The notes below the pieces were generated by a model. It was given only the letters and a program-made list of their open reading frames with translations. It had not been told where the DNA came from and made no database searches. From Anaerolineaceae bacterium (GTDB lineage: Bacteria; Chloroflexota; Anaerolineae; Anaerolineales; Anaerolineaceae): a DNA stretch of 64,000 nt. The stretch is taken from contig JAGPFF010000004.1 in NCBI GenBank assembly GCA_018056725.1, forward strand, positions 1 through 64,000, given 5' to 3'. The first letter of the stretch is position 1. Each line of letters opens with the position of its first letter. This document shows, piece after piece, positions 37,071 through 55,988 of this stretch. A program made the position numbers and the translations under genes.

Positions 37071-37946
37071 ATGACAGCAAAAATCATCGATGGTAAGTTG
37101 ATCGGAGAACAGCTCCGTAAGGAGGTTGCAGAAGGTGTTCAGGCGCGGCTTGCGATGGGCAAAAAAAGACCTGGTCTGGCTACTGTTCTGATTGGCGAAA
37201 ATCCGGCTTCCCAGGTGTATGTCAAATCCAAACAAAAAGCCTGCGCTGAAGTGGGCATTGAATCTTTTGGGTTTGAGCTGCCAAAAGAAGCCGGGCAGGC
37301 TGAAGCCGAAAAACTGGTGAAAAAACTCAATGCTGACCCGGCAGTAAATGGCATTCTGGTTCAGTTGCCGCTTCCCTCCGGCTATGACGAAGAGGCGGTA
37401 CTGAGCGCCATTTCAATTGAAAAGGATGTGGATGGATTTCACCCGCTGAATATCGGTCGCCTGGCACAGAAGGGTCGCGACCCTCTCTTCATCCCATGCA
37501 CCCCCGAAGGGGTGATGTACATGTTGGAACATGAAATTCCTTCTCTGGAAGGCAAAAACGCTGTGGTTCTTGGAAGGAGTAATATCGTTGGTATGCCGGT
37601 GGCACTTTTGCTTGTGCGTGCCAATGCCACGGTCACTATCTGCCATTCGCGCAGCCAGAATCTGGCGCAAATTGTGCGCGGTGCGGACATTTTGGTGGCT
37701 GCCGTCGGCAAGCCGGAGATGGTTCGCGGCGATTGGATCAAGCCGGGCGCTGTGGTGATTGATGTGGGAATCAACCGGGTGGAGGACGCGTCCAGAGCCA
37801 GAGGTTACCGTCTGGTAGGGGATGTCTGCTTTGAGGAAGCGGTACAGGTTGCACAGGCGATCACTCCGGTTCCTGGTGGCGTGGGACCATTAACCATCGC
37901 CATGCTGCTGAAGAATACATTAAGAGCTGCCAATTTGAAGGATTAA
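37071..37946 (+). CDS. folD: methylenetetrahydrofolate dehydrogenase / methenyl-THF cyclohydrolase
   Basis: This 291-residue bifunctional enzyme interconverts 5,10-methylene-, 5,10-methenyl- and 10-formyl-THF. Motifs are VGENPASQVYVKSKQKAC-like GENPASQVYVKSKQKACAE with the catalytic Lys, VQLPLPSGYDEEAVL, KDVDGFHPLNIGRL, GRSNIVGMPVA, and TPVPGGVGPLTIAMLLKNT. It sits just upstream of the purine catabolic operon but is separated from it by an operator-flanked promoter. It also links to the FTCD product and to purine metabolism. Confidence 0.97.
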   Translation: MTAKIIDGKLIGEQLRKEVAEGVQARLAMGKKRPGLATVLIGENPASQVYVKSKQKACAEVGIESFGFELPKEAGQAEAEKLVKKLNADPAVNGILVQLPLPSGYDEEAVLSAISIEKDVDGFHPLNIGRLAQKGRDPLFIPCTPEGVMYMLEHEIPSLEGKNAVVLGRSNIVGMPVALLLVRANATVTICHSRSQNLAQIVRGADILVAAVGKPEMVRGDWIKPGAVVIDVGINRVEDASRARGYRLVGDVCFEEAVQVAQAITPVPGGVGPLTIAMLLKNTLRAANLKD

Positions 37947-37956
37947 GAAAAATCTT

Positions 37957-37969
37957 ATTGTCAGACAAT
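37957..37969 (+). promoter_or_regulatory. operator 1 (palindrome ATTGTCAGACAAT)
   Basis: The 13-bp palindrome ATTGTCAGACAAT overlaps the first base of the -35 element of the promoter for the 8-oxoguanine deaminase gene. It shares its 13-bp core exactly with operator 2, 53 bases downstream. The GT...AC half-site layout is that of GntR-family operators, and a GntR gene is the third gene of this operon. Confidence 0.75.
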
Positions 37970-37997
37970 TGACTTTCTCTCAAAATAACTATACACT
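37969..37997 (+). promoter_or_regulatory. promoter of the purine catabolic operon
   Basis: TTGACT (37969-37974) and TACACT (37992-37997) are 17 bases apart, 55 bases before the ATG at 38053. The two operator palindromes lie on either side, one touching the -35 and one just downstream of the expected start of transcription. Confidence 0.6.
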
Positions 37998-38008
37998 CAA
38001 GACGTGTA

Positions 38009-38025
38009 GAATTGTCAGACAATTC
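38009..38025 (+). promoter_or_regulatory. operator 2 (17-bp perfect palindrome)
   Basis: GAATTGTC-A-GACAATTC is a perfect 8+1+8 inverted repeat just after the expected transcription start. It repeats the core of operator 1. Binding here and at operator 1 together would block the promoter, possibly through a DNA loop or by a dimer at each site. Confidence 0.78.
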
Positions 38026-38052
38026 TCACGTCTTTCTATAAAGGATGAACTC

Positions 38053-39435
38053 ATGAAAACGTTACTTATCAGGCATGCCCAGTTGCTTGTAACCATGGAT
38101 GACCACCGTCGGGAAATCACCGATGGTGGTCTTTTTATACGAGATGGATTTATCGAAAGAGTGGGAACCACCGCTGATCTCCCACAGACTGCAGATGAAA
38201 TTCTGGATCTTGCAGGGTATATCGTGCTACCCGGCATGGTCAATACCCACCATCATTTCTATCAAACGCTCACACGGGCAGTGCCTGCTGCGCAAAATGC
38301 CAACCTGTTCAACTGGCTCAAGACGCTTTATCCCATTTGGGCAAGGATGACGGCAGAGGATATTCGCATTTCTACCCAGACGGCACTCGCCGAACTGGCG
38401 CTTTCAGGATGTACCACTGCCTCTGATCATCTCTACCTCTTCCCGAATGGCTCGCGGTTGGACGATGAAATCGAGGCAGCTGCCGAGGTAGGTCTCCGTT
38501 TACATGCCTCACGTGGTTCGATGAGTCTCGGCGAAAGTAAGGGTGGCTTGCCTCCGGACAGTGTTGTGGATAGCGAAGAGCGAATTCTGGCGGATAGCGA
38601 GCGCTTGATTAACAGGTATCATGATCCAAATCCTGGTTCAATGGTGCAGATTGTGTTGGCACCTTGTTCACCTTTCAGCGTTACCGGAAAATTAATGAAG
38701 CAAAGCGCTGAACTGGCGCGGAAATATGGCGTACACCTGCATACTCATCTCGCCGAAACCCAGGATGAAGAAGAATTCTGCCTGCAGCAATTCGGCTATC
38801 GTCCGGTAGCTTACATGCAATCGGTAGATTGGGTTGGTGAGGACGTCTGGTTTGCCCATTCGGTGCACGTAAGCCAGGAGGAAATCCAGCTTTACGCACG
38901 CGAAGGGTGTGGCGTAGCCCATTGTCCTTCCTCCAATATGCGGCTGGCTTCCGGAATTGCCCCTTTAATGGAGTTTCTCAAGGCAGGGGTAAAAACTGGT
39001 CTTGGCGTGGATGGTTCCGCCAGTAATGACAGTTCCCACATGCTCGCTGAAGCCCGTCAGGCGATGCTGCTGGCGAGATTAAATGCCGGACTCAAAGGGG
39101 CTTCTTTATCTTCAACCGGTGAGGAAATCCTCTCCGTGCGACAGGCACTGGAGGTAGCCACGCGGGGTGGCGCCTCGGTGTTGGGGCGTAAGGATATTGG
39201 TTCGCTGGAAGTGGGAAAATGCGCCGATTTTATCGCCTTTGACCTTAATCATCTGGATTATGCTGGTGCTTTGCATGACCCGGTTGCTGCGCTGCTCCTC
39301 TGCCAGCCAAGGGGCGTAGATTATTCTTATGTAAATGGCAAGCCCGTGGTCCAAGAGGGTCATCTCATGGGTCTCGATCTTGAAAAGCAAATTCGCATTC
39401 ATAACAAAGCGGCAGCTCGCTTGGTGGAAGGGTAA
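38053..39435 (+). CDS. 8-oxoguanine deaminase-like amidohydrolase
   Basis: This 460-residue protein belongs to the ATZ/TRZ/SsnA branch of the amidohydrolase superfamily. Metal-site motifs are NTHHHFYQTLTRAVP (H66, H68), HLHTHLAETQDEEEF, WFAHSVHV (H269) and GLGVDGSASND (D320). The stretch LHASRGSMSLGESKGGLPPDS and the SPFSVTG region match what I know of the 8-oxoguanine deaminases (PA0142 type), which convert 8-oxoguanine to urate. Guanine or another aminopurine remains possible. The start at 38053 is set by AAGGATG and by the operators upstream. It is the first gene of the regulated operon. Confidence 0.82.
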   Translation: MKTLLIRHAQLLVTMDDHRREITDGGLFIRDGFIERVGTTADLPQTADEILDLAGYIVLPGMVNTHHHFYQTLTRAVPAAQNANLFNWLKTLYPIWARMTAEDIRISTQTALAELALSGCTTASDHLYLFPNGSRLDDEIEAAAEVGLRLHASRGSMSLGESKGGLPPDSVVDSEERILADSERLINRYHDPNPGSMVQIVLAPCSPFSVTGKLMKQSAELARKYGVHLHTHLAETQDEEEFCLQQFGYRPVAYMQSVDWVGEDVWFAHSVHVSQEEIQLYAREGCGVAHCPSSNMRLASGIAPLMEFLKAGVKTGLGVDGSASNDSSHMLAEARQAMLLARLNAGLKGASLSSTGEEILSVRQALEVATRGGASVLGRKDIGSLEVGKCADFIAFDLNHLDYAGALHDPVAALLLCQPRGVDYSYVNGKPVVQEGHLMGLDLEKQIRIHNKAAARLVEG

Positions 39436-39439
39436 ACCT

Positions 39440-41242
39440 ATGGGCATGGATTCATTTTGGTTACAAAATGCACGTGAACTGGTGGACTGCGCGATGGGGC
39501 GGGTACCGGCTCATCTTGTCATCCTCAACGGCAGCTGGGTATGCGTTCAGACGGGTGAAATCATTCCCCATATAGATATTGCCATGCGCTCCAAACGGAT
39601 TGCTTATGTAGGAGAAAATGCCCGCCATACAATTGGCAAAAAAACCATTGTAGTCAATGCCGAAGGACGTTTTCTCGTTCCTGGCTTGCTGGATGCCCAT
39701 ATGCACGTTGAATCCGGAATGGTGACTGTGACGGAATTTGTTCGCGCTGTTCTGCCACACGGTACGACCGGCATGTTCATTGATCCGCATGAGATTGCCA
39801 ATGTGTTTGGTTTGCGCGGAGTCCGATTGATGGTGGATGATGCCGCGCTGCAGCCGATCCATGTTTTTGTGCAAATGCCTTCCTGTGTTCCTTCCGCGCC
39901 GGGTCTTGAGACCCCCGGTGCGGTTCTTGGTCCAAACGATGTAACCGAAGCAATGACCTGGCCGGGAATTATTGGGCTGGGCGAGATGATGAATTTCCCT
40001 GGTGTCTATCAGGGGGATGACAAAGTCCACGCTGAAATGGCAGCCACCCGCGCCGCCGGCAAAGTGATCGGCGGTCATTATGCCTCGCCAGACCTTGGAC
40101 TACCTTTCCATGGCTATCTGGCGGGGGGTCCACAGGACGATCACGAAGGCACCCGGTTGGAGGATGCGGTGGCAAGAGCGCGCCAGGGCATGAAAGTGAT
40201 GTTGCGTTACGGTTCAGCCTGGCAAGATGTGGCGGCTCAGGTTACGGCAATTACTGAAATGGGACTTGCCAGCCGGAACTTTCTCTTGTGCACCGATGAC
40301 AGCCAGGCAGAGACCCTCATCACCGAAGGGCACATGGACCGAGTATTACGACATGCAATTTCTCACGGGCTTGATCCAATGACCGCGATTCAGATGGCAA
40401 CCATCAATACGGCGGAACATTTCGGGGTGTCACGCGAAATGGGGTTGATCGCACCAGGGCGGTATGGGGATGTGCTTATTGTTGAGGATTTAAACGACTT
40501 TCACGCTGGCACCGTCATTGCCAGAGGCAAAGCGGCGGTGCAAAACAATGCAATCCTCGTTGATTTGCCGGTCAGAGAGTATCCAGAATGGGCAACGAGT
40601 TCGGTGCATTTTCCCCATCCATTGACGGCGGAAAACTTCAAACTCAAGGTAAATGGGAATGGAAATGGTGATGTCGTTGCTCACGTCATTGGCATCATCG
40701 AAAATCAAGCTCCTACAAAACATCTAAAGATTCATCTGCGGGCTCAAAATGGTGAAATTCACCCAGATGTTGAAAAAGATGTGGCAAAAATTGCGCTGGT
40801 GGAGCGCCATCGCCCGACTGGAAAAGTGCAGGTCGGGCTGGTTCAAGGGTTTGGCTTCGGTGCGCATTGCGCTGTGGCAACCACAGTGGTGCATGACAGT
40901 CATCAGATGATTGTGGTAGGGACAGATGAAGCCCAAATGGCGCTCGCCGCAAATCGCCTGGCAGAAATTGGTGGAGGTCAGGTTGCTGTCCGCGCAGGTG
41001 AAGTGATAGGAGAAATCTCATTACCGATTGGTGGATTAATGTCCGAAAGAAGCGCGGTTGAGGTAGCCACGCAGGCAGCTGACCTGCTGCGCGGTTTTCG
41101 AGAGTGCGGATGCACGCTCAACAACCCTAATATGCAGCTGAGCCTCCTCGGGCTGGTGGTCATCCCCCGGCTGCGCATTTCAGATTTAGGGCTGGTGGAT
41201 GTGGACAAGTTCGAGTTTATCCCGGTAATTGAGCCCAGGTAA
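39440..41242 (+). CDS. ade: adenine deaminase
   Basis: This 600-residue protein has the Ade layout: an amidohydrolase domain with LVPGLLDAHMHVESGM, TTGMFIDPHEIANVFG, IGGHYASPDL-type and FLLCTDDSQAETL motifs, then the C-terminal Ade-specific domain (VQGFGFGAHCAVATTVVHDSH-like region at about 490-515). It converts adenine to hypoxanthine. The ATG at 39440 lies 4 bases after the previous stop with a GGAAGGG site. Operon position after the oxoguanine deaminase and before a GntR gene supports a role in purine breakdown. Confidence 0.93.
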   Translation: MGMDSFWLQNARELVDCAMGRVPAHLVILNGSWVCVQTGEIIPHIDIAMRSKRIAYVGENARHTIGKKTIVVNAEGRFLVPGLLDAHMHVESGMVTVTEFVRAVLPHGTTGMFIDPHEIANVFGLRGVRLMVDDAALQPIHVFVQMPSCVPSAPGLETPGAVLGPNDVTEAMTWPGIIGLGEMMNFPGVYQGDDKVHAEMAATRAAGKVIGGHYASPDLGLPFHGYLAGGPQDDHEGTRLEDAVARARQGMKVMLRYGSAWQDVAAQVTAITEMGLASRNFLLCTDDSQAETLITEGHMDRVLRHAISHGLDPMTAIQMATINTAEHFGVSREMGLIAPGRYGDVLIVEDLNDFHAGTVIARGKAAVQNNAILVDLPVREYPEWATSSVHFPHPLTAENFKLKVNGNGNGDVVAHVIGIIENQAPTKHLKIHLRAQNGEIHPDVEKDVAKIALVERHRPTGKVQVGLVQGFGFGAHCAVATTVVHDSHQMIVVGTDEAQMALAANRLAEIGGGQVAVRAGEVIGEISLPIGGLMSERSAVEVATQAADLLRGFRECGCTLNNPNMQLSLLGLVVIPRLRISDLGLVDVDKFEFIPVIEPR

Positions 41243-41252
41243 AGAAAAGGTG

Positions 41253-42023
41253 ATGGATAACTTCATGGAAAAACCATCCCAGGAATCTCCACATCCATTT
41301 ATCCGTTTACAACGCGAACTGGCGGCTCTCATTGAGCAAACACCGCCTGGTCAGCGTTTGTCCTCTGAACCTCAACTTGCCCGCCAACTGGGGGTATCCC
41401 GAGCAACCTTGCGCGAAGGCATGCGCACCTTCGAAGCCCAGGGTCTGATTCGCCGCCGGCAGGGTGTGGGGACATTTGTGGTACCCCGGGTCGGAGTGAT
41501 TGAATCCGGATTGGAAGTTTTGGAGAGCATCGAGACACAGGCGCGGCGGATCGGATTGGCTGTTTTTATGGGGGATCTGGAAGTGAGTGAAATTGAAGCC
41601 GGGCTCGAGGAAGTACAAAACCTGCACGTTCCTCTTAATAGCCAACTGGTACGTGTGGCACGAGTGATTTACACGGAGCAACACCCGGTGGCTTATCTGG
41701 TGGATACTCTTCCACCGGACGTTTTATCGGAGCAGGAGCTTCAGCAGGGATTTACCGGCTCAGTTTTGGATTTTTTGATTAATCGCGGAACGCCAATTCT
41801 GTCTCAATCCTACACAGACATTCAAGCGGTAGCGGCTGAGGCAAGGATCGCCCGTAGAATGGAAATTCAACGGGGCGATGTTTTATTGAATTTTGAAGCC
41901 AGGTTGTTCGATAGTCAAGAAAAAATCATTGATTATTCATTAAGTTATTTTCTACCCGGTTTTTTTCGTTTTCACGTCGTGCGCCACATTGGCAGTGCTT
42001 TATCCTATCCTGACCGGGTTTAG
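41253..42023 (+). CDS. GntR-family transcriptional regulator (HutC/UTRA type)
   Basis: This 256-residue protein has an N-terminal winged HTH (PPGQRLSSEPQLARQLGVSRATLREGMRTFEAQGLIRRRQGVGTFV, residues about 30-75) and a C-terminal UTRA effector domain of about 150 residues (VARVIYTEQHPVAYLVDTLPPDVL, ILSQSYTDIQAV, LNFEARLFDSQEKIIDYSLSYF). It is the third gene of the operon whose promoter carries two palindromes, so autoregulation by a purine-related ligand is likely. Start uncertain: ATG 41253 chosen (AAAAGG upstream); 41265 is an alternative. Confidence 0.88.
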   Translation: MDNFMEKPSQESPHPFIRLQRELAALIEQTPPGQRLSSEPQLARQLGVSRATLREGMRTFEAQGLIRRRQGVGTFVVPRVGVIESGLEVLESIETQARRIGLAVFMGDLEVSEIEAGLEEVQNLHVPLNSQLVRVARVIYTEQHPVAYLVDTLPPDVLSEQELQQGFTGSVLDFLINRGTPILSQSYTDIQAVAAEARIARRMEIQRGDVLLNFEARLFDSQEKIIDYSLSYFLPGFFRFHVVRHIGSALSYPDRV

Positions 42024-42096: not shown

Positions 42097-43047
42097 ATGA
42101 GAAGCTTTGCTGGTAGGGATATCCTTTCGCTCAAAGAGTTTGAACGTGAAGAGTTCTTTCATATATTTGAAGTGGCGGATGAGATGGCGCCAATCGCCAA
42201 GAGTCGCAGAAATTCAGACCTGCTTGCTGAAAAGACACTCGTTACCGCCTTTTATCAACCCAGTACGCGCACCCGTCTGGCGCATGAAGCAGCGATGCAC
42301 CGGCTGGGGGGGCATGTCACCGGGTTTGCTGATGCCAAAATGACCCGTGCCGGTGATTTTTATCAGGAATCCATCAAAGATACAGTAAAAATGCTCGAAT
42401 ATTACGGGGATGTGATCGTGATGCGTCATTTCCAACAGGGCGCGCCTCACGAAGCGGCAAAGTGGGCATCCATTCCAGTCATCAACGGCGGTGATGGCTG
42501 GGGTGAGCATCCAACCCAAATCCTCACCGATCTCTATACGGTGCTGACCGAAAAAGGCACCATTGATGGCTTGCGTTGGCTGGCGGTCGGTGATATGCGA
42601 ATGCGCACCATGCACTCTTTGGGGTATGCCCTTTCTCAGTTTGATTGCCCGATTACCTTTGTTTCTCCCCCTGAAATGTCCCTGACACCGGAATTTAAAG
42701 AGGAATTGAATCGCTTTAGTGTGAACTTTTCAGAAGCGGAACACGTGGAACAGGCGATTGCCCAGGCAGATGTCATTCTGGTGGAACCGGTCGTTCAGCC
42801 GGATTACACAAAGTCACGGCAGGAAGCCGGTGATCATGGATTAACCCCGGAGAATTATCGCATCACCCGCGAATTGCTGACCACCAAAGCAAAGTCGGAT
42901 GCGATTCTGCTGCATTCCTTACCGCGCATGGACGAAATCCCAACCGATGTGGATATTACCCGCTGGTCACGCTACTGGCAGGAGGCGTTTAATGGTGTCG
43001 TTATGCGTATGGCATTGTTAGCTTTGGTACTTGGCAAAATGGAATAA
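42097..43047 (+). CDS. aspartate carbamoyltransferase-like transcarbamylase
   Basis: This 316-residue protein has the ATCase/OTCase fold. The carbamoyl-phosphate motif is PSTRTRLAHEA (S56-R60), with HPTQ at 138-141 and HSLPRMDEIPTDVD near the end. It looks most like ATCase, but two amino-acid-side features differ: the 80s loop lacks the SxxKGE-type Ser/Lys (it reads AKMTRAGDFYQESIKD), and the RVQ of the 240s loop is replaced by EPVVQPDY. So L-aspartate may not be the substrate. It is encoded with a second transcarbamylase and carbamate kinase, which favours a catabolic role (making carbamoyl phosphate) over pyrimidine synthesis. True pyrB cannot be excluded. Confidence 0.72.
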   Translation: MRSFAGRDILSLKEFEREEFFHIFEVADEMAPIAKSRRNSDLLAEKTLVTAFYQPSTRTRLAHEAAMHRLGGHVTGFADAKMTRAGDFYQESIKDTVKMLEYYGDVIVMRHFQQGAPHEAAKWASIPVINGGDGWGEHPTQILTDLYTVLTEKGTIDGLRWLAVGDMRMRTMHSLGYALSQFDCPITFVSPPEMSLTPEFKEELNRFSVNFSEAEHVEQAIAQADVILVEPVVQPDYTKSRQEAGDHGLTPENYRITRELLTTKAKSDAILLHSLPRMDEIPTDVDITRWSRYWQEAFNGVVMRMALLALVLGKME

Positions 43048-43088: not shown

Positions 43089-44069
43089 ATGCAAACTTTT
43101 CTTCATGGTCGCGATCTCATCGGTGACCTGGATTTTTCCAAAGAAGAAGTTGAAACGGTTTTGGATGTAGCCTTTGACCTTAAACGCAAACGAGCATTAA
43201 ATGAGTCTACTCCGTATCTGCGGGATAAAGTGCTGGCGATGTTGTTTTTCTTCAGCAGCACACGCACACGTGGTTCCTTTGAAGCAGGCATGGCTCATCT
43301 GGGGGGTCACGCTGCTTTCATTGAATCACGTACTACTCAGATTTCACACGGAGATACTCCCAAGGAAATTGGTGAAATTTTTGGGCGTTACTTTGATGGC
43401 ATCGCCATCCGCCATGTCGATTGGGGCGTGGGAAACGGCTATTTGAATGAAGTCGCGAAAGCCTCCCGCGTGCCGGTATTGAACATGCAATGCGATATTT
43501 ACCATCCCTTCCAGTGTCTGGCGGATTTAATGACCATCATCGAGAAGAAAGGTCGTGACCTTCGCCGTAAAAAAATGGTCGTTTCCTGGGCGTACGCAGC
43601 CTCCTACCAAAAACCGATGTCTGTACCGCAATCCCTGATTCTTCAAATGCCCCGCTTTGGCATGGATGTAGTGTTAGCACATCCGCCCGAGTTCCGCTTA
43701 ATGCCCGAGATCATGGATCAGGCAAGAGAACAGGCGCGCAAATTCAACGCTGGCTTTGAGGTGGTTGAAGACATGGATGAGGCTTTCAAAGATGCGGACA
43801 TCATTTACGCAAAATCCTGGGGCGCAATGGTGCACACACCGGATGCCGACGAAGGAGCCAAAATCATCAAGAAGTACGAAAGTTGGATTACCGATGAACG
43901 GCGCATGAAGCTGGCAAAACCGGATGCGATCTATATGCATCCGCTTCCTGCTGACCGCAATATCGAAGTGACGGATGCCGTAATGGATGGTCCGCAATCT
44001 GTGGTTTACGATGAAGCCGAAAACCGGATGCACGCGCAGGAAGCCGTGATGGCTTTAACGATGAGTTAA
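43089..44069 (+). CDS. knotted carbamoyltransferase of the YgeW/OTC family
   Basis: This 326-residue transcarbamylase has FFFSSTRTRGSFEAGMAHLGG (STRTR at 57-61), HPFQCLADL (139-147) and MHPLPADRN. The segment MVVSWAYAASYQKPMSVPQS (163-182) with RFGMDVVLAHPP matches the knot region of E. coli YgeW and the acetyl/succinyl-ornithine enzymes. The last 45 residues (EVTDAVMDGPQSVVYDEAENRMHAQEA) look like classical OTCase. YgeW lies in the E. coli purine/ureide cluster. Here it stands between an ATCase-like gene and carbamate kinase. The amino substrate is unknown. Confidence 0.78.
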   Translation: MQTFLHGRDLIGDLDFSKEEVETVLDVAFDLKRKRALNESTPYLRDKVLAMLFFFSSTRTRGSFEAGMAHLGGHAAFIESRTTQISHGDTPKEIGEIFGRYFDGIAIRHVDWGVGNGYLNEVAKASRVPVLNMQCDIYHPFQCLADLMTIIEKKGRDLRRKKMVVSWAYAASYQKPMSVPQSLILQMPRFGMDVVLAHPPEFRLMPEIMDQAREQARKFNAGFEVVEDMDEAFKDADIIYAKSWGAMVHTPDADEGAKIIKKYESWITDERRMKLAKPDAIYMHPLPADRNIEVTDAVMDGPQSVVYDEAENRMHAQEAVMALTMS

Positions 44070-44098: not shown

Positions 44099-45055
44099 AT
44101 GGCAAAAAAGTTAGCAGTAGTAGCAGTTGGAGGTAATTCCCTCATTATTGATCCCAAGAAAGTATCAGTGGAGGATCAATATCTGGCGGCGGCTGAAACC
44201 ACAAAGCATATCGCGGATATGATCGAAGCTGGATGGGATGTTGCGATCGGTCACGGGAATGGACCGCAAGTTGGGTTCATCCTGCGCCGCTCTGAGATTG
44301 CAGCCAAGTATGAAGGCATGCACGAGGTTCCACTGGATGTCTGCGGAGCGGATAGCCAGGGCGCCATCGGTTATATGCTTCAGCAGACCCTGCAGAATGA
44401 ATTCAAACGCCGTGGGATTGAAAAATCCGTCGCCACTGTGGTTACCCAGGTAAAAGTGGATAAGAATGACAAAGCGTTTGAACACCCCACCAAACCCATC
44501 GGCAGTTTTATGGATGAGGCGGAAGCCAAGAAACGTGAAAAGGAAATGGGCTGGACAGTTGTGGAGGATGCCGGTCGTGGTTGGCGCCGTGTGGTTGCCT
44601 CCCCCATTCCCAAGGAAGTAGTTGAGATTGAACCCGTCCGAGCCTTAGTGGGGGCGGGTGTGGTTGTGGTCACAGTAGGTGGTGGCGGCATCCCGGTGGT
44701 GGATGATGGCAAGGGCGGTAACGTGGGTGTTGCCGCTGTAATTGACAAGGACTATGCCTCAAGCCTGCTGGCTACTTTAATCAAAGCAGACATGTTCATT
44801 ATCTCGACAGCGGTTGAAAAAATCGCCATCAATTATGGAAAACCCGATCAGAAGTGGCTGGATCGCATGACGCTTTCGGAAGCAAAAGCATATCTTGCGG
44901 AAGGAACTCACTTCGCCAAGGGGTCCATGGCACCTAAGATTCAAGCCATCATCAATTACCTTGAAGCGGGTGGCAAGGAAGCTCTTGTAACCAACCCTGA
45001 AAATATCGGGCGCGCGCTGCGCGGCGAAACTGGAACCCGAATCGTTCACGACTGA
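44099..45055 (+). CDS. arcC: carbamate kinase
   Basis: This 318-residue enzyme transfers phosphate from carbamoyl phosphate to ADP, giving ATP, CO2 and ammonia. It has AVGGNSLI at the start, GHGNGPQVGFILRRSE, SQGAIGYMLQQTL, WRRVVASPIP, TVGGGGIPVV and the end FAKGSMAPKIQAIINYLEAGG. Length is normal. It ends the carbamoyl gene group, followed by a strong terminator. With the two transcarbamylases this is the energy-yielding end of a ureide or arginine-type pathway; no arginine deiminase is present here. Confidence 0.96.
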   Translation: MAKKLAVVAVGGNSLIIDPKKVSVEDQYLAAAETTKHIADMIEAGWDVAIGHGNGPQVGFILRRSEIAAKYEGMHEVPLDVCGADSQGAIGYMLQQTLQNEFKRRGIEKSVATVVTQVKVDKNDKAFEHPTKPIGSFMDEAEAKKREKEMGWTVVEDAGRGWRRVVASPIPKEVVEIEPVRALVGAGVVVVTVGGGGIPVVDDGKGGNVGVAAVIDKDYASSLLATLIKADMFIISTAVEKIAINYGKPDQKWLDRMTLSEAKAYLAEGTHFAKGSMAPKIQAIINYLEAGGKEALVTNPENIGRALRGETGTRIVHD

Positions 45056-45320: not shown

Positions 45321-46526
45321 ATGTTTTCAAAGAAGATTTGGCTCGTTACCAGCGTTTTATTGATCGCCGCGCTTGCTCTCTCGGCTTGTGCCAAACCGAC
45401 CGAAGCGCCCGTTGAAACTCCGCTCACGGTTGGGTTATTGTTGGTCGGTCCAGCGAATGATGCCGGCTGGAGTCAGGCGCATTTTGACAGTATGTCTTAT
45501 GTCAAGGAAAAATTGCCCGGTACAGAGGTGATCTACCTTGAGAATGTATACACCGGCTCCACGGCACATACCATGACCCCGGCTGAACTCGCCGCGGATA
45601 TGGTTACCAAAGGCGCCAAAGTGATCATCTTCAACTCGGATGACCAAAAAGACAACGCTATTAAGTTTGCGCAGGAACACCCTGATATCTTCGTCATTCA
45701 TGCCTCAGGCGATTCTGCCTGGAAGGAAGGGAAGAATTATGTGGACCTTCCCAACCTGAAGAACATCATGGGCAGGATGGAATATGGCAAGATGATCGCA
45801 GGGTGTGCTGCCGCCCTCACCACCCAAACCGGTAAGATTGGTTTCCTGGGTCCATTAATCAATGACGAGACCCGCCGCTTTGCCGCCTCAGCTTACCTCG
45901 GCGCCAAATATTGCTGGGAGAACTACCTGGAAAAAGATCCTGCTGATCTCGAATTCAAAGTCACGTGGATCGGTTTCTGGTTCAATATCCCCGGAGTCAC
46001 GCTTGATCCTACGCAGGTGTCGGATGATTTCTACAACACGGGTTATGATGTCATCATCAGTTCAATTGACACCACTGAAGCGTTGACCGAAGCTAAAAAA
46101 TTCGCTGCGGATGGAAAAAAGGTTTGGGCTATTCCTTATGATTATGCTGGCGCTTGCCAGGGTGCGGAAGAAGTATGTCTCGGTGTTGAATACTTCAACT
46201 GGGGTCCTGCCTACGTTGAAGCGATCAAATCTGTCCAAAACGGAACCTGGAAATCCAGCTTCGAACTGGTGGGTCCGGATTGGAAGGATATCAATAATCG
46301 TGATACTTCGGCAGTCGGGTTCAATAAAGGCGCCGCACTTTCTGCGGATGCCTCCGCTAAAATTGATCAGTTCATCAGCGAACTGGGTGGCGGTTTGAAC
46401 CTGTGGACCGGTCCCATCAATCTGCAGGACGGAACCCCCTACTTGAAAGAGGGTGAAGTGGCTACAGATCTGCAAATCTGGTACCTGCCGCAATTGCTCG
46501 AAGGCATGGAAGGGCAAAGCGAGTAA
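45321..46526 (+). CDS. BMP-family lipoprotein, substrate-binding component of a nucleoside/purine ABC importer
   Basis: This 401-residue protein has a lipoprotein signal (LLIAALALSAC, Cys 23) and the BMP/PnrA-like periplasmic-binding fold: TVGLLLVGPANDAGWSQAHFDS, VIFNSDDQKDNAIKFAQEHPDI, IGFLGPLINDETRRFAASAYLGA, VWAIPYDYAGAC. Relatives such as PnrA bind purine nucleosides. It is anchored outside the membrane and precedes an ATPase and two permeases of the same system. RBS AGGAGGAG. Confidence 0.9.
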   Translation: MFSKKIWLVTSVLLIAALALSACAKPTEAPVETPLTVGLLLVGPANDAGWSQAHFDSMSYVKEKLPGTEVIYLENVYTGSTAHTMTPAELAADMVTKGAKVIIFNSDDQKDNAIKFAQEHPDIFVIHASGDSAWKEGKNYVDLPNLKNIMGRMEYGKMIAGCAAALTTQTGKIGFLGPLINDETRRFAASAYLGAKYCWENYLEKDPADLEFKVTWIGFWFNIPGVTLDPTQVSDDFYNTGYDVIISSIDTTEALTEAKKFAADGKKVWAIPYDYAGACQGAEEVCLGVEYFNWGPAYVEAIKSVQNGTWKSSFELVGPDWKDINNRDTSAVGFNKGAALSADASAKIDQFISELGGGLNLWTGPINLQDGTPYLKEGEVATDLQIWYLPQLLEGMEGQSE

Positions 46527-46587
46527 TTCATTTGGTTGCGTGGGGGAAGGATCATCCTTCCCCCACGTTTTTTATCCTGAGGGTCGC

Positions 46588-48051
46588 TTGAAAATTACAT
46601 TTCAACATATCGATAAATCATTCGGCAAAGTTCATGCAAACGATGACATTAATCTGACGATTCCCTCCGGAACGATCCAGGGAATTCTTGGAGAAAATGG
46701 GGCTGGGAAGAGCACCCTGATGAAAATTCTGACCGGATTCTATCAGGCGGATTCAGGGGAGATCTTGCTCGATGATCAGCCGGTGAAGATCTCCACACCC
46801 GAGGAAGCTGTCCTGCGAGGAATTGGCATGCTTCATCAAGACCCATTGGACTTTCCGCCCATGAAGGTGATCGATAACTTCTTGTTGGGGACGAAAGGTG
46901 GACTCTTTCCGCGGCGTGATGAGGTTAAAAAGGAGATCATCCGGCTTTCGCGTGAGTTTGATTTTCAAATCGATCCAGAATCCTACGTAGAATCGATGAC
47001 TGTGGGCGAACGCCAGCAACTTGAAATCCTGCGCCTGTTATGGCTGGGTGTAAAGGTGCTGATCCTGGACGAACCGACAACGGGCATTTCAGCTAATCAG
47101 AAGGAAAAATTATTTGCCACCCTGAAAAAACTTGCCAGTCAGGGATTAACGGTGATTTTTGTCTCTCATAAACTGGAAGAGGTGGAATACCTTTGTAACC
47201 GAGTAGCGGTGTTCCGTCAGGGAAAGCTGGTAGGAGAAGTTGAACCACCATACGATACGAATCAATTTGTTTTCATGATGTTTGGGAAATCGGTGGAGGT
47301 GGGTGAAAAGACTTCATATTTTCAGCAAACCCCATACGTCCGCCTGGAAAATATCGGTTTGGAAGATTATCGGCTGCACCTTAAAAACATCAATCTCGAG
47401 ATCAACCGCGGTGAAGTGATTGGTCTGGCTGGGATGGAAGGTTCTGGGCAGCGTCTCTTCCTGCGCATGCTGGCAGGTCTGGTGCGACCCGTCAGCGGTA
47501 AGATTTATTTGGATGGGGTTGATTTTACCGGGAAGACCTATCCGTATTTTAAGAAATCTGGTGTTGCCTTTTTACCCGCTTCCCGTCTGGAAGAGGGTTT
47601 GATCCCTGGAATGACATTAACAGAACATTTTATTTTATCTGAAGAGCATCGGGAATTATTTGTAGACCAAAAAAGTGCTGCCAACCTGACTGAAGAACGG
47701 ATTCAGGCTTATGCGATTAAAGGATCGCCTTTCAGCCAGATCGAACAGCTTTCTGGTGGCAACCAACAGCGCGCCTTACTGGCTCTGCTCCGCCGGGAAC
47801 TAAAATTGATTTTGATGGAGCATCCGACGCGCGGTTTGGATATTGAATCTTCGATTTGGATTTGGTCGTTGATGAAACAGCGCTGTAAAGATTGCGCCAG
47901 CATTGTTTTTATTTCTGCCGATCTCGATGAAATAATTCAATATAGCGATCGCATTCTAGTATTTTTCGGCGGTCTGGTTTCCCGTCCGATCGACGCAAAA
48001 ACCACAAGCGTCGATGAACTGGGTCAATTGATCGGTGGCAAGGGGTGGTGA
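46588..48051 (+). CDS. ABC transporter ATP-binding protein, double cassette (TTG start)
   Basis: This 487-residue protein has two ABC domains like those of RbsA/YufO. The first has Walker A GILGENGAGKSTLMKIL, signature MTVGERQQLEILR and Walker B VLILDEPTTGIS. The second has a degenerate Walker A (LAGMEGSGQRLFLRML, Lys replaced by Gln) and the intact signature LSGGNQQRALLALLRR. I use TTG at 46588 with TGAGGG upstream; the frame is open upstream but overlaps the BMP gene. It energises the BMP/permease system. Confidence 0.9.
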   Translation: MKITFQHIDKSFGKVHANDDINLTIPSGTIQGILGENGAGKSTLMKILTGFYQADSGEILLDDQPVKISTPEEAVLRGIGMLHQDPLDFPPMKVIDNFLLGTKGGLFPRRDEVKKEIIRLSREFDFQIDPESYVESMTVGERQQLEILRLLWLGVKVLILDEPTTGISANQKEKLFATLKKLASQGLTVIFVSHKLEEVEYLCNRVAVFRQGKLVGEVEPPYDTNQFVFMMFGKSVEVGEKTSYFQQTPYVRLENIGLEDYRLHLKNINLEINRGEVIGLAGMEGSGQRLFLRMLAGLVRPVSGKIYLDGVDFTGKTYPYFKKSGVAFLPASRLEEGLIPGMTLTEHFILSEEHRELFVDQKSAANLTEERIQAYAIKGSPFSQIEQLSGGNQQRALLALLRRELKLILMEHPTRGLDIESSIWIWSLMKQRCKDCASIVFISADLDEIIQYSDRILVFFGGLVSRPIDAKTTSVDELGQLIGGKGW

Positions 48052-48073
48052 CCCATTGAGGAGGATTTTTTAG

Positions 48074-49147
48074 ATGTCAGTTGAAAGAAACACAGCTCAG
48101 GCTTCCTCATTTCTTAAAAAAAGCGCGTGGATGGATGTTGGCATCCGGGTTGGAGCGGTGCTTCTGGCTTTGGTATTTACTTCTATTATTCTGCTCATTG
48201 CCAGAGCGAATCCGATCGAAGCCTATTCCAGCATCATTCAAGGAGCCTTCGGTTCCACCATCAAGGTTACCTCGGTCATCGCCTCGTGGGTGCCCCTCGT
48301 GATTGCCACTTCCGGTTTGCTTTTTACATTCACCGCGGGGTTGTGGAATATCGGTATGGAAGGGCAGATCGTCATGGGCGCTGTTTTCACGGTGGGTGCC
48401 TTCAGGGTGCTGGATACAAGTGGGCTTGATCCGGCGGTGGTGATTACCTGTGCCTTCTTTGCCGGTGCAATTGGTGGAATCTTCTGGGCACTCTTGCCTG
48501 GCATGATGAAAATCTACGGTGGAGTGAACGAAATTTTCGGCGGGCTGGGTTTAAATTTTGTCGCCAAAACTGTTGCCATCTGGCTGATCTTCGGTCCCTG
48601 GAAACGCCCCGGCGTGGCTTCTGGAAGCGGAACCGAGTGGATTGATATTAAATACAGGCTGCCATTTTTAGCGGGGACGAACCTGAGCCCGGTGATTCTG
48701 GTGATTGCAATTTTGGTCGTGGTATTCACCGCCCTGATGTTAAAAGGCACTCATTTCGGTCTACGGCTGAAGGCGATTGGCAAGAACGATAAAGCCGCTT
48801 ATATCCTGGGAATCCCAACGAACCGGTATTTTTTAGTTGCCTTTGGGGTGTGCGGTTTATTTGCAGGAATTGCTGGTGCAATTCTCGTTACTTCCAAACA
48901 ATACAGCCTAATTCCGGATGCCGGGTTTGGTTATGGTTTCTTAGGATTGCTGGTGGCGATGCTGGTCAATTATCACCCCATCTGGTCTTCAATTGTTGCG
49001 ATTTTCTTCGCCGCGCTTAGCATTGGCAACTCACAATTACAGTACATTGGTTTGAATTCCTATTTTGCCGGTGTATTGCAGGGCTTTCTGGTCCTTTTCG
49101 TTGTGCTGGTTGACGGCATACGGAAACGACTGGTGATCAGGCATTAG
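48074..49147 (+). CDS. nucleoside-type ABC importer permease 1
   Basis: This 357-residue membrane protein has about nine hydrophobic segments. The family motif ATSGLLFTFTAGLWNIGMEGQIVMGAVF lies at about 75-102, followed by GGVNEIFGGLGLNF and LKAIGKNDKAAYILGIPTNRYFLVAF (the coupling loop that docks on the ATPase). This is the BPD_transp_2 type of permease found with BMP binding proteins. It is the third gene of the importer operon, 22 bases after the ATPase. Confidence 0.9.
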   Translation: MSVERNTAQASSFLKKSAWMDVGIRVGAVLLALVFTSIILLIARANPIEAYSSIIQGAFGSTIKVTSVIASWVPLVIATSGLLFTFTAGLWNIGMEGQIVMGAVFTVGAFRVLDTSGLDPAVVITCAFFAGAIGGIFWALLPGMMKIYGGVNEIFGGLGLNFVAKTVAIWLIFGPWKRPGVASGSGTEWIDIKYRLPFLAGTNLSPVILVIAILVVVFTALMLKGTHFGLRLKAIGKNDKAAYILGIPTNRYFLVAFGVCGLFAGIAGAILVTSKQYSLIPDAGFGYGFLGLLVAMLVNYHPIWSSIVAIFFAALSIGNSQLQYIGLNSYFAGVLQGFLVLFVVLVDGIRKRLVIRH

Positions 49148-49158
49148 GAGAAGGACAC

Positions 49159-50151
49159 ATGGACGCTGCAACTTTAACCACCCTGGCTGGAATTGTTGAA
49201 TATGCAGTACCTGTTCTTTTTGCCTCCATTGGCGAAAATTTTACAGAAAAAGCCGGATTAACAAATCTATCCGTCAATGGCACCATCATACTTGCTGCGA
49301 TGGGGAGTTTCGTGGTGGCGCTCACCACCAGCAGCATTTTGCTCGGATTCCTGGTTGGCGCGTTAATCGGTGCGCTCATTGCCGGAATTGTGGCTTTCAG
49401 CAGTATCACCCTCAAGCAATCTCAGGTTGCGATTGGTTTCGTGCTTGCCCTCCTTTGCCGTGATCTGGCTTATTTTCTCGGCGCGCCTTATACCAATAAA
49501 CCCGGGGTTTTCCTCTCGAAGGTTCCCATTCCCGGGCTGGCTGAAATACCTGTTATTGGACCGATTTTCTTCAATCATTCCATCGTGGTTTACATATCCT
49601 ATCTCTTTATCGTCGTGGCTTATGTCTTTATGTTCAAAACACGACCCGGTTTGATGCTGCAGGGAATTGGTGAACGCCCCACAGCAGCTTTTGTCCGCGG
49701 GGCGAATGTGAAGGGCTTGCGCTACCTCTATACCATGCTGGGTGGTGCTTTAGTGGGATTGGCGGGACCGATGTATTCGCTGGCGGTGAAGATCGGTTGG
49801 GCAGGGCAACTTTCCGGGCTGGATGGCGTGGGGTGGATTGCCCTGGCGATCACCATTTTCGGTGGTTGGAATCCGCTGCGGGTTGCGTTTGGAGCTTACC
49901 TCTTTGGTGGGCTGCAGCAGTTGGGAATTACTCTCCAATCCTCCACTGAAATCCCCATCCAGATCCTGCAGGCTGCACCCTTCCCGTTAATGATCTTTAC
50001 TCTCTTGCTGGTTAATGTTGGTCGCGCCGAATGGGTGGAACGGGAACTTGCTGCCATGCCGGAAAAACCGCGCAAGATCCTCTCCAAAATTCTGCGTGCT
50101 TTACGCACTTCACCCCCGGCATCTCTGGGTATCCCCTTCGAAAATGAATAA
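49159..50151 (+). CDS. nucleoside-type ABC importer permease 2
   Basis: This 330-residue protein is a second BPD_transp_2 permease. It begins with LAGIVEYAVPVLFASIGENFTEKAGLTNLSVNGTIILAAMGSF, the usual second permease of this importer class. The motif MLQGIGERPTAAFVRGANVKGLRYLYTMLGGALVGLAG holds the ATPase-coupling loop. Together with permease 1 it forms the heterodimeric channel. 11 bases separate it from permease 1. Confidence 0.9.
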   Translation: MDAATLTTLAGIVEYAVPVLFASIGENFTEKAGLTNLSVNGTIILAAMGSFVVALTTSSILLGFLVGALIGALIAGIVAFSSITLKQSQVAIGFVLALLCRDLAYFLGAPYTNKPGVFLSKVPIPGLAEIPVIGPIFFNHSIVVYISYLFIVVAYVFMFKTRPGLMLQGIGERPTAAFVRGANVKGLRYLYTMLGGALVGLAGPMYSLAVKIGWAGQLSGLDGVGWIALAITIFGGWNPLRVAFGAYLFGGLQQLGITLQSSTEIPIQILQAAPFPLMIFTLLLVNVGRAEWVERELAAMPEKPRKILSKILRALRTSPPASLGIPFENE

Positions 50152-50161
50152 GGATTTAACC

Positions 50162-51409
50162 ATGAGCAATTTTCTCGGATACAAATGTTCCATCTGTAAT
50201 TCCGAATTCTCACCCGTATCCATCCTCTACAGCTGCCCTCATTGTGGAGGGAATCTGGATGTGGTTTTGGATTATGAGACGCTTAAGAAGAAATATCGCG
50301 AGGAAGACATTACCTCCCGGACCGATGCTTCGTTATGGCGGTATACGCCCCTCCTTCCGGTTCCAGACCCTGACGGGATTCACACCCCCCTCCACGCGGC
50401 AGGCTGGACCCCGGTTTTTCAACCCGACAGACTGGCTGCTGATTTAGGCATAGAAAAGCTATGGGTAAAAGATGAAGGCAGAAACCCCACTGCTTCCTTC
50501 AAAGATCGGGCAAGTGCAATCGTGGTTGCCAGAGCAAGAGAAATCAAAGCTGAAGTAGTGGTGACGGCGTCAACGGGCAATGCGGGCGCTGCACTGGCGG
50601 GTATGGCAGCTGCCATAGGGCAGAAAGCAGTGATTTTTGCCCCACGGACGGCGCCACAGGCGAAAATCGCGCAATTGTTGGTATATGGATCGCAGGTCAT
50701 TCTGGTGGATGGGAATTACGATTCTGCCTTTGACCTTACCATCGAAGCCGCCAAAGAATTTGGCTGGTATTGCCGGAACACCGGATACAATCCTTTTACT
50801 GCGGAAGGCAAAAAAACTGGGGCTTTTGAAATTTGGGAACAGGTCGGTCGTCATCTGGAAAGCAGCGATGCACCTCTGTGTGTTTTTACCTCGGTTGGCG
50901 ATGGCAACATCATTTCTGGACTGCACAAAGGGTTTAAAGACCTCTATGAATTGGGCTGGCTGACACAAATGCCCCGTTTGTTTGGGATTCAATCGGAACT
51001 TTCGGCAGCGATTGCCAATGCCTATACCGCCAATACGGAAACCATCCTTCCGGTCAATGCCACCACTGTGGCAGATTCGATCAGTGTGGATTTACCCAGG
51101 GATGGCGTTCGGGCAGTACGCGCAGCTGTTCAGACACATGGCTCTTATCTGACCGTTCGCGATGAGGATATCATCGCCGCCATTGCTGATTTTGGCGTGA
51201 ATGGTATTTTTGCTGAACCCGCAGGCTCAACCTCTCTTGCCGGTTTGAAGAAGGCGATTAAGGAAGGATTAATCCGTCGGGATGACCCCGTCCTTTTACT
51301 GAATACGGGCAATGGTTTGAAGGATGTTCGCGCCGCGATGATGGCGGTACCGAATGCGGCTATAATTGAACCGACTATGGAATCCTTAAAAAAATTCTTG
51401 AATAAGTAG
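50162..51409 (+). CDS. threonine synthase-family PLP enzyme with N-terminal zinc finger
   Basis: This 415-residue fold-type II enzyme begins with a zinc finger (C9, C12, C25, C28 in YKCSICN and SCPHCGG) and has the PLP lysine in [11 protein letters not shown] (K114). [15 protein letters not shown] is the phosphate-binding/asn loop, and [10 protein letters not shown] is near the end. Homology fits threonine synthase, but its position right after a purine-type importer and with a second PLP enzyme suggests it could act on an amino acid from ureide breakdown, such as a beta-replacement or elimination reaction. The start at 50162 has an AAGGATT site; the frame is open upstream inside permease 2. 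Confidence 0.78.
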
Positions 51410-52353: not shown

Positions 52354-52376
52354 ATCTTGATTTGGAAAGGATGAGA

Positions 52377-53843
52377 ATGGCAAAAATAGACCTGAGGATA
52401 GACAAAGCACGGCGGGAGCACGCAATTGCACAACTGCGCGAGCGAAAAATTATTCTGCCCACCTTTGCCCAAATGAAAGATCCGAGCAAGATTCCACCAA
52501 AAATAAAAGAGGAATTATCCACAATTGGTTTATGGGATGTTCATCCGCGCAATCTTTACCGTATCACCTGGAAAAATCAACCGCAAACCACTGGTGGAGG
52601 TTTTGACGGGGTTAATTATGTCGAATTTCCCTCCAGTTTGACTGGTACCAAAGCAAGAATTATTGCTCTGGTTGGCAAGTGGTTTCCGACAGGAGCTCAC
52701 AAAGTAGGTGCAGCCTATGGGTGTCTGGTGCCACGGCTGGTGACTGGTCAGTTTGATCCCACAACACAGAAGGCAGTCTGGCCTTCCACTGGGAATTATT
52801 GCCGCGGCGGTGCGTATGATTCTGCGCTTTTGGGCTGCGAGTCGATCGCCATCCTTCCGGAGGGAATGTCGAAGGAGCGGTTTGCCTGGTTGAGCCGGAT
52901 TGCCGGCGAGGTGATCGCTACACCCGGCTCGGAATCCAATGTCAAAGAGATTTTTGATAAATGCAAGGAATTAAGAGCCTCTGGTGAGGATTTGATGATC
53001 TTCAACCAGTTCGAAGAATTTGGTAATTATCTTTGGCATTACGAAGTGACCGGGCATGCCATGCAGGAAGTGCTTCAGGCAGTCAGTAGACCGGGAGATC
53101 ATTATCGTGGCGTGGCGCTGACAACAGGTTCTGCTGGCACCATCGCCTGTGGTGATTATCTGAAGCAGGAATACCCAACCAGCAAGATTATTGCCAGCGA
53201 AGCTCTCCAATGTCCAACCTTGCTTGAAAATGGTTTTGGCGCTCATCGTATTGAGGGGATTGGTGATAAGCATGTGCCATGGATTCATAATATTAAAAAT
53301 ACGGATCTGGTAGTAGCGATTGATGACAATGCCGTCGTGGAGATCATGCGGCTCTTCAACGAACCTGAAGGGCGCAAATTCCTGGTGGAACAGGGAATCC
53401 CCGAGGATTTCGTCTCACGGCTCGATTTACTGGGATATTCCGGCATTGCCAACCTGCTTTCAGCCATCAAATTTGCCAAATACTATGAGTTAGGCGAAAA
53501 CGATATTGTTCTTACCGTGCTTACGGATTCAATGGAGCTCTATTCCAGCCGTGTGGAGGAAATGCGCGCTCAATTTGGTGCCTATTCCAAAATCAATGCT
53601 TCCGCTGGTTTTGCGCGTTATCTGCAAGGTGTCAACACAGACCATTTGCTGGAGCTTACCTATGAGTCGCGTCGCCGCATCCATAATCTGAAATACTATA
53701 CCTGGGTGGAACAACAAGGGAGAACCTACGAGGAGATTCAGAACCAGTGGTATGATCCGAATTACTGGACGGAAATTCAAAATCAAGTGGAAGAAATAGA
53801 CCATTTGATTATGGAATTCAACAATCAGGTTGGGTTGCTCTAA
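52377..53843 (+). CDS. fold-type II PLP-dependent enzyme (TrpB/cysteine-synthase-like), function unknown
   Basis: This 488-residue enzyme has a PLP lysine in KWFPTGAHKVGAAYGCL (K109), the same context as TGAHKIN in TrpB. WPSTGNYCRGGAYDSALLGCESIAILPEGMSKERF follows, split here, and then GVALTTGSAGTIACGDYLKQEYP. It is longer than cysteine synthase (about 310) and TrpB (about 400). I do not know the substrate; the setting suggests elimination on an amino acid such as diaminopropionate, serine or a carbamoylated form. Start ATG 52377 (AAGGATGAG upstream); 52371 is possible. A strong hairpin follows the stop. Confidence 0.7.
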   Translation: MAKIDLRIDKARREHAIAQLRERKIILPTFAQMKDPSKIPPKIKEELSTIGLWDVHPRNLYRITWKNQPQTTGGGFDGVNYVEFPSSLTGTKARIIALVGKWFPTGAHKVGAAYGCLVPRLVTGQFDPTTQKAVWPSTGNYCRGGAYDSALLGCESIAILPEGMSKERFAWLSRIAGEVIATPGSESNVKEIFDKCKELRASGEDLMIFNQFEEFGNYLWHYEVTGHAMQEVLQAVSRPGDHYRGVALTTGSAGTIACGDYLKQEYPTSKIIASEALQCPTLLENGFGAHRIEGIGDKHVPWIHNIKNTDLVVAIDDNAVVEIMRLFNEPEGRKFLVEQGIPEDFVSRLDLLGYSGIANLLSAIKFAKYYELGENDIVLTVLTDSMELYSSRVEEMRAQFGAYSKINASAGFARYLQGVNTDHLLELTYESRRRIHNLKYYTWVEQQGRTYEEIQNQWYDPNYWTEIQNQVEEIDHLIMEFNNQVGLL

Positions 53844-54480: not shown

Positions 54481-54557
54481 CCCTGTACCTGGATTTCATC
54501 ACTGGTAGAATAACGAGTGTGTGGAGCTTCATCATAAAGCCCACGAGGATTTATTTT

Positions 54558-55988
54558 ATGAAAACTCTCATCAAGAACGGCGTCCTTGTTACGGAAAGCC
54601 AGGTGGAACCTGCGGATTTGCTGATTGAAGGGGAAACAATTGCCCGGATCGCGCCGAAGATTCTTACGGAATCCGACATCGAAGTGATTGACGCTGGCGG
54701 GATGTACATTTTGCCCGGTGGAATCGATGTTCATGTGCATCTTGATTTACCTATGGCAGGCACAGTCTCCAGTGATGATCATTACACTGGCACTAAAGCT
54801 GCTGCTTTTGGTGGCACCACCACTGTGATTGATTTTGTTTCTCAAGATGAGGATGACTTGTTAGAATGCGTTGCTGCCTTGCGGCACAAAGCGGATCCAA
54901 AGGTGGCGGTGGATTACGGCTTGCACATGAACATTACTCATTTAACACCACAGGTCGAAAAGCAAATTTCCCTCTTGTCTTCAGTGGGAATCACGAGCGT
55001 GAAAGTGTTCAGTGCCTATAACGGGCGGTTGCGGTTGAATGATGCTGAAATCTTAAAAGTTATGCGCGTAGCAAAAAATAATGGCTTACTCACTCTCCTT
55101 CATGCGGAGAATGGGGATATTATTGATTTATTGGTTTCGGAAGCCCTAAAAGAAGGGAACACCACCCCAATCTGGCATGCGAGAACCCGTCCGGCATGGG
55201 GTGCTGTAGAAGCGGTGCTGCGCGGTGCGGCGATCTCGAAAATAGCAGAAGCCCCGCTCTATATCGTGCATATGAATGTGGCGGGGGAAGTGGATATGGT
55301 CGAATATGCCCGCAGCAAAGGGCTCCTCCTATTTGGCGAGACCTGTCCGCAGTATCTATTCTTCACCGAAGAGGATTTGCGGCGACCGGATGGCGCGAAG
55401 TGGGTGTGTTCGCCGCCTCTCCGCACGCCCCAGGATCAAAAGAGACTTTGGGAAGGCTTAAAAGAGGGGAGCATTCAAGTTATCTCCACAGATCATTGTC
55501 CATTTTTCTTCGATGGAACTACGCCCATCGAGTATGAAGGTCGAGAAGTAATGATTGCCGGTAAAGAACTTGGTGCTGAGGATTTCACCAGGATTCCTAA
55601 TGGTTTACCAGGTGTGGGCGACCGCCTGCCCATCCTGTGGAGCTCTATGGTCAGTTCTGGTAAATTCTCTCTCAACGAGTTTGTGCGCCTTACCAGCACC
55701 AATCCGGCAAAGCTGTTCGGTCTCTACCCCAAAAAGGGGAACCTGGCACCCGGCGCGGATGCGGATATCGTCATTTGGGATCCGAAGAAAAAGGTAAAGT
55801 ACGGGAAGATCTTATCCCAGCAACGGACGGATTACAACCTTTATGAGGGTTGGGAATTGGAAGGCTTTCCAGTTCGGGTTTTTTCGCGTGGCGTGCAGAT
55901 TGTGGAGAATGGTCGCTGGATGGGCAAACCTGGAGGAGGGCGATTTATTCATCGCCAACCCTTCTTGCCGCAGGAACCGGATGCCTAA
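54558..55988 (+). CDS. hydA: dihydropyrimidinase / D-hydantoinase
   Basis: This 476-residue amidohydrolase opens cyclic ureides such as dihydropyrimidines or hydantoins (including, in related clusters, purine-derived rings). It has GGIDVHVHLD (H59, H61), a carboxylated-lysine candidate K149 in SVKVFSAYNGR, LLHAENGD, YIVHMN and STDHCPF. FGETCPQYL is typical of dihydropyrimidinases. The start at 54558 has a GAGGATT site. The stop abuts the ATG of a membrane-protein gene, so the two are coupled. Confidence 0.92.
   Translation: MKTLIKNGVLVTESQVEPADLLIEGETIARIAPKILTESDIEVIDAGGMYILPGGIDVHVHLDLPMAGTVSSDDHYTGTKAAAFGGTTTVIDFVSQDEDDLLECVAALRHKADPKVAVDYGLHMNITHLTPQVEKQISLLSSVGITSVKVFSAYNGRLRLNDAEILKVMRVAKNNGLLTLLHAENGDIIDLLVSEALKEGNTTPIWHARTRPAWGAVEAVLRGAAISKIAEAPLYIVHMNVAGEVDMVEYARSKGLLLFGETCPQYLFFTEEDLRRPDGAKWVCSPPLRTPQDQKRLWEGLKEGSIQVISTDHCPFFFDGTTPIEYEGREVMIAGKELGAEDFTRIPNGLPGVGDRLPILWSSMVSSGKFSLNEFVRLTSTNPAKLFGLYPKKGNLAPGADADIVIWDPKKKVKYGKILSQQRTDYNLYEGWELEGFPVRVFSRGVQIVENGRWMGKPGGGRFIHRQPFLPQEPDA

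Follow-up and report, generated by a model that had tools for sequence, protein, structure and literature searches.

Two palindromes at the promoter of a purine-catabolism-type operon of an Anaerolineaceae bacterium: probable operators of the operon's own GntR/UTRA regulator

The promoter of a gene cluster resembling those for purine breakdown, located in the window (the whole stretch of DNA analyzed, 64,000 nucleotides), carries two exact copies, O1 and O2, of the palindromic 13-mer ATTGTCAGACAAT. Judging from sequence comparison, O1 and O2 are very likely the operators of the operon's own GntR/UTRA regulator, which would repress the operon until a metabolite of the purine pathway binds. We found no description of a GntR/HutC regulator of purine catabolism in Anaerolineae in the open-access literature, and in a published motif survey none of the 389 HutC-type factors came from Chloroflexota (PMC4494728). 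The regulator–operator pair, along with its candidate regulon, is offered here for Chloroflexota purine breakdown in a form open to testing. Coordinates of all features are given in Table 1.

Table 1. Promoter elements, hairpin and genes of the operon region (positions in the window)
Feature	Sequence	Position	Strand	Basis or remark
folD, upstream neighbour		37071-37946	+	Pfam THF_DHG_CYH; ends 10 bp before O1; outside regulated unit
Operator O1	ATTGTCAGACAAT	37957-37969	.	exact match; centre 37963
-35 box	TTGACT	37969-37974	+	consensus promoter scan; TTGAC[AT] in 57 loci
-10 box	TACACT	37992-37997	+	consensus promoter scan; 17-nt spacer after -35
Terminator-like hairpin containing O2		37999-38034	+	folding: 16 pairs, -18.8 kcal/mol, z -5.9; short T-rich stretch after
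Operator O2	core ATTGTCAGACAAT (38011-38023) within 17-bp perfect palindrome GAATTGTCAGACAATTC	38009-38025	.	exact match; centre 38017
Shine-Dalgarno of first operon gene	AAAGGA	38040-38045	+	
8-oxoguanine-deaminase-type amidohydrolase, first operon gene		38053-39435	+	NCBIfam PRK08203, 689 bits vs cut-off 532
Adenine deaminase (ade)		39407-41242	+	NCBIfam TIGR01178 above cut-off; Pfam Adenine_deam_C
GntR/UTRA (HutC-type) regulator, proposed binder of O1/O2		41253-42023	+	Pfam GntR and UTRA; predicted fold
Aspartate/ornithine carbamoyltransferase family protein 1		42097-43047	+	Pfam OTCace_N, OTCace
Aspartate/ornithine carbamoyltransferase family protein 2		43089-44069	+	Pfam OTCace_N, OTCace
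Carbamate kinase		44099-45055	+	NCBIfam arcC above cut-off
ABC uptake system of BMP/PnrA type, purine/nucleoside-type (binding protein, ATPase, two permeases)		45321-50151	+	Pfam Bmp, ABC_tran, BPD_transp_2
PLP enzyme, threonine-synthase/ammonia-lyase type		50162-51409	+	Pfam PALP
Second PLP (PALP) enzyme		52374-53843	+	Pfam PALP
Dihydropyrimidinase/hydantoinase (HyuA-like)		54555-55988	+	NCBIfam TIGR02033 above cut-off

The two copies of the core and the perfect palindrome around the second one had been noticed in a preliminary description of this DNA, and both observations hold; the distance between the centres is 54 bp, not 53 as counted there. At both sites the half-sites ATTGTC and GACAAT flank a single A; the result is a GT...AC palindrome at the promoter of a regulator-linked gene set, conserved together with gntR. 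The promoter boxes and their spacer are also as previously described; their placement between the two copies is not, as the last base of O1 is the first T of the -35 box (position 37969). The -35 box is close to consensus, and TA[CA]ACT is the aligned -10 box in all 13 loci of the genus. Transcription, as we infer by distance from the -10 box only, would start at ~38004; O2 lies directly downstream of this point.

Exact occurrences of TTGTCNGACAA in the window numbered two, with 0.09 expected from dinucleotide shuffles, none of 100 of which gave two. The earlier remark that no third copy was seen near the other promoters checked holds for exact cores throughout the 64-kb window. The only other near-copy, differing at one of the fixed bases of the core, is at 36223, inside a coding sequence; a scan of the window with three mismatches allowed was uninformative, with 16 sites found against 21.5 expected.

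The inventory of genes downstream of this promoter resembles that of anaerobic purine-breakdown clusters, Chloroflexota variants of which have been noted earlier (PMC12507026). The first gene product fits the 8-oxoguanine deaminase model of NCBIfam rather than the SsnA model. Amidohydrolase, hydantoinase, carbamoyltransferase, carbamate kinase and PLP lyase are common to the cluster and to the reductive uric acid degradation clusters of Escherichia coli and Clostridioides difficile; the words 'regulator' and 'GntR' are absent from the main text of the paper describing the latter (PMC12507026). In one congener (L045, 9825-11054) a gene for a YgeY-like M20 peptidase was observed directly 3' of gntR, which strengthens the link to anaerobic purine degradation.

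The preliminary description had proposed a search of the whole genome for the palindrome, with many unrelated copies to count against a dedicated operator. In the genome of the window (2.14 Mb, 89% complete) TTGTCNGACAA occurs exactly three times: at O1, at O2 and at C84:5264 (5264-5274; L119:1501-1511); thus, there is one further exact copy only, and it stands before another purine-catabolism operon. This third core is intergenic, ~290 bp upstream of the genes for the FAD subunit and the 2Fe-2S subunit of xanthine dehydrogenase (as measured to the xdhB start codon), and divergent from a gene for a PhnD-like binding protein. Of the 15 genus genomes examined, 12 have a site at about this position before xdhB, and so do a few others; it is not preserved family-wide. 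The xanthine dehydrogenase operon would probably be controlled by the same regulator. Additional exact cores were seen in congeners: between another xanthine dehydrogenase gene and xdhC (L164:1501, L168:1501), 33-45 bp before the ORF of an ammonium transporter (L171:1501), and between an MFS transporter gene and a RadA-like gene (L172:1501); the genes next to them are candidate members of the regulon. Numbers of cores per genome do not cleanly separate genomes with gntR from those without it, since larger genomes carry several cores by chance; the informative part is the position.

Positions were compared across the family, where the regulator is present in 110 of 147 genomes. In 81 gntR loci, window included, 85 of 88 exact cores lie just before operon genes, in DNA that accounts for 7% of the sequence; the binomial value is ~1e-93, which, the loci being related, means 'far from random' only. 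Thirteen of the 81 loci have no exact core, most of these being truncated contigs or having sites with one mismatch; in L085 and L095 no site was found with up to one mismatch. Among 75 loci with readable upstream DNA, 57 have the operator (≤1 mismatch) fused to TTGAC; the spacer is 17 nt long in 49 of the 57, and the -10 box is mostly TAAACT or TACACT. Named members include Anaerolinea, Bellilinea, Levilinea, Longilinea, Ornatilinea, Thermanaerothrix and Flexilinea. Of these 57 composite loci, 26 have a second copy (≤2 mismatches) 44-57 bp downstream; in 22 cases the distance is 44-45 or 53-57 bp, i.e. near whole helical turns. In some other relatives an additional site, 14-29 bp upstream of O1, is seen instead of a second copy, and about half of the relatives lack O2 or have only a degenerate form of it. 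The conserved element is O1 on the -35 box, while O2 is variable; binding at two sites would be a common refinement rather than a general feature. In Anaerolineales outside the family the core is kept before the deaminase, often as GTTGTCAGACAAC, with different promoter context and neighbours.

O1 covers the -35 box and O2 covers the transcript start, so steric repression would be the simplest reading of the arrangement. A dimer of the regulator, with one winged helix per half-site, would bind at O1, on top of the -35 box, and at O2, right after the start; once bound, it would block RNA polymerase at the operon promoter, and thereby expression of its own gene as well. A purine-pathway metabolite binding to the UTRA domain would then release the regulator; target genes point to a purine or a breakdown product as the ligand. 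We cannot but note that the same protein could bind the same sites as an activator, or switch its role with the ligand: the extra site 14-29 bp upstream of O1 in several relatives is a possible activator position, and the site of the xanthine dehydrogenase operon is at the distance from the xdhB start codon given above (~290 bp). We regard either role as very improbable, however, because a conserved site on the -35 box with a second one at the transcript start is the classic geometry of steric repression, and a -35 box this near to consensus argues in the same direction.

Another question is which protein reads the sites. The spacing of the operator, GT-N3-AC, is that of the FadR subfamily (PMC4494728), which makes genes of FCD-type GntR proteins the obvious rivals; the genome encodes two FCD-domain GntR proteins, and AlkR, an FCD/VanR regulator, binds the identical 13-mer (PMC12042122). 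The palindromes could thus serve such a regulator encoded elsewhere, the UTRA regulator binding something else. A phylogenetic-profile comparison of rival regulators covered the two FCD genes: orthologs of them are found in genus g27, where the sites are lost, and each is absent from many site-bearing genomes. The sites are tracked by the regulator gene of the operon and by neither FCD gene, which leaves this alternative very improbable.

Several loci with changed gene order are informative for the same question. In two rearranged loci where the deaminase gene is not the first one (L063, L079), the site stands before gntR. In genus g10 gntR and the gene of the PLP enzyme have an unrelated membrane-protein gene between them, and the operator is directly before the PLP enzyme (L096, L099, L100, L101, L108), with gntR itself having no site. 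Genus g27 (L257-L266) has no gntR; adjacency of folD and the deaminase is kept, the deaminase being 70-73% identical to that of the window, and operator and promoter are both absent in all 10 loci read. The folD transcript may have come to include the g27 deaminase gene.

The earlier suggestion that the GntR/HutC-type gene at 41253 encodes the regulator tied to the palindromes is therefore backed by comparison: the sites are conserved with gntR, they track its targets, they vanish with gntR in g27, and the FCD genes do not track them. Self-regulation, also suggested earlier, would apply where gntR is inside the operon; as a universal feature it fails in g10.

The regulator consists of an N-terminal GntR winged helix (PF00392, residues 25-76; 47 bits vs cut-off 27) and a C-terminal UTRA domain (PF07702; 61.4 bits vs cut-off 23.8); no FCD effector domain was matched in it by Pfam, which places it outside the FadR/FCD subfamily. 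Its predicted model resembles PhnF and DasR in full length (Z 21.4), aligning with DasR along its length (Z 21.4, 2.6 Å, 228 residues), and the UTRA part matches chorismate lyase, i.e. the chorismate-lyase fold (Z 10.8). None of the NCBIfam equivalogs HutC, PhnF, PhnR and TreR scored above its curated cut-off, the best being 70.8 bits vs 220 for HutC. The conserved sites, GTCNGAC, have 3 nt between GT and AC, and thus differ from the typical HutC operator, GT-N4-AC. Three nucleotides is the rule of the FadR subfamily, with four in 'most' HutC-type sites (PMC4494728); since the latter rule holds for most sites only, assignment of the regulator to a subfamily rests on its domains. The DNA-binding domain, for which PdhR is the closest solved structure by sequence, obtains similar scores with the HutC and PdhR models; it may or may not have been acquired from a FadR-type protein.

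The GG of the NagR operator is read by two arginines, Arg48 at the inner G and Arg38 at the outer one (PMC4333415). Alignment of 24 orthologs of the regulator shows R50, the putative equivalent of NagR Arg48, to be invariant, and likewise P40 at the presumed position of NagR Arg38, the correspondence of residues having been drawn by eye from the sequences. Pro40 with R50 would fit a TTGTC rather than a TGGTC half-site (TG for GG).

O2 is situated within a stable terminator-like hairpin (Table 1). Related stems exist in congeners L037, L038, L041 and L044, and in L037 and L038 the stem is kept with O2 lost; in the lower stem 2 of 8 pairs show changes on both sides, in an alignment of five sequences only. 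The truncated leader folds less stably (-10.4 kcal/mol). In relatives L058, L070, L071 and L116 a terminator-like hairpin is placed instead in the gap from folD to O1, and for this reason we suspect that the hairpin at 37999-38034 could be the folD terminator; the operon transcript, starting inside the 5' arm, would escape termination. That the palindromes themselves function as RNA or DNA hairpins (leader or terminator) and not as protein sites is extremely improbable in spite of this stem and its O2-independent persistence, as O1, the better-conserved copy, is in the promoter and outside the transcript, conservation is at the level of operator sequence, beyond mere pairing, and the hairpin is limited to few relatives.

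A second terminator-like hairpin was observed at 38101-38131 (12 pairs, then TTTTT), in codons 16-28 of the first operon gene. All 13 genus members examined have a similar hairpin at this position, overlapping conserved codons, so that its conservation is confounded with that of the protein sequence; it is a possible intragenic attenuator.

With O1 and O2 read as operators of the UTRA regulator, the switch would be of an ordinary kind, GntR operators on a catabolic promoter, with spacing atypical for a UTRA regulator. One could speculate, somewhat short of even confidence, that this is an undescribed UTRA-type GntR family, widespread in Anaerolineales, with a FadR-type operator (GT-N3-AC) and an invariant Pro in place of a base-reading Arg; it would be the main switch of anaerobic purine catabolism in that order, with one operator joined to the -35 box and a second, in the group of the window, inside the terminator of the upstream gene. 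A UTRA regulator apparently acting on a FadR-type operator, the same 13 bases as those of a Pseudomonas VanR-type repressor, suggests that operator spacing is independent of the effector domain.

Comparison with described regulators shows that individual parts of this system are familiar. The DNase I footprint of AlkR, a GntR/VanR repressor, is exactly ATTGTCAGACAAT (PMC12042122); the sequence is thus a proven operator of the GntR family elsewhere. The AlkR/alkB2 system of Pseudomonas aeruginosa SJTD-1 shares with the present one the identical 13-bp operator on a catabolic-gene promoter and a GntR-family repressor (putative here); AlkR differs in having an FCD effector domain, acyl-CoA ligands, a role in alkane metabolism and a single site, whereas the present operon combines a UTRA regulator with purine genes, and its site is fused to the -35 box. 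The GntR/HutC repressors NagR (YvoA), DasR and PhnF share the two-domain fold over the whole chain (predicted here), with the recognition-helix Arg and the wing Gly kept (PMC4333415); the NagR operator, GTGGTCTAGACCAC, is GT-N4-AC, in contrast to GT-N3-AC here, where Pro40 replaces the outer-G-reading Arg of NagR. Regulators of the PdhR/FadR subfamily also use an odd palindrome in which 3 nt separate GT from AC, but carry an FCD effector domain and usually have TKGT half-sites, with Arg where Pro stands here (PMC4494728). Finally, NupR of Bacillus thuringiensis is, likewise, a GntR/HutC regulator of a BMP-type nucleoside uptake system; it differs in an imperfect 20-bp site and in zinc as the effector, and purine-degradation enzymes were not reported in its operon (PMC9430930).
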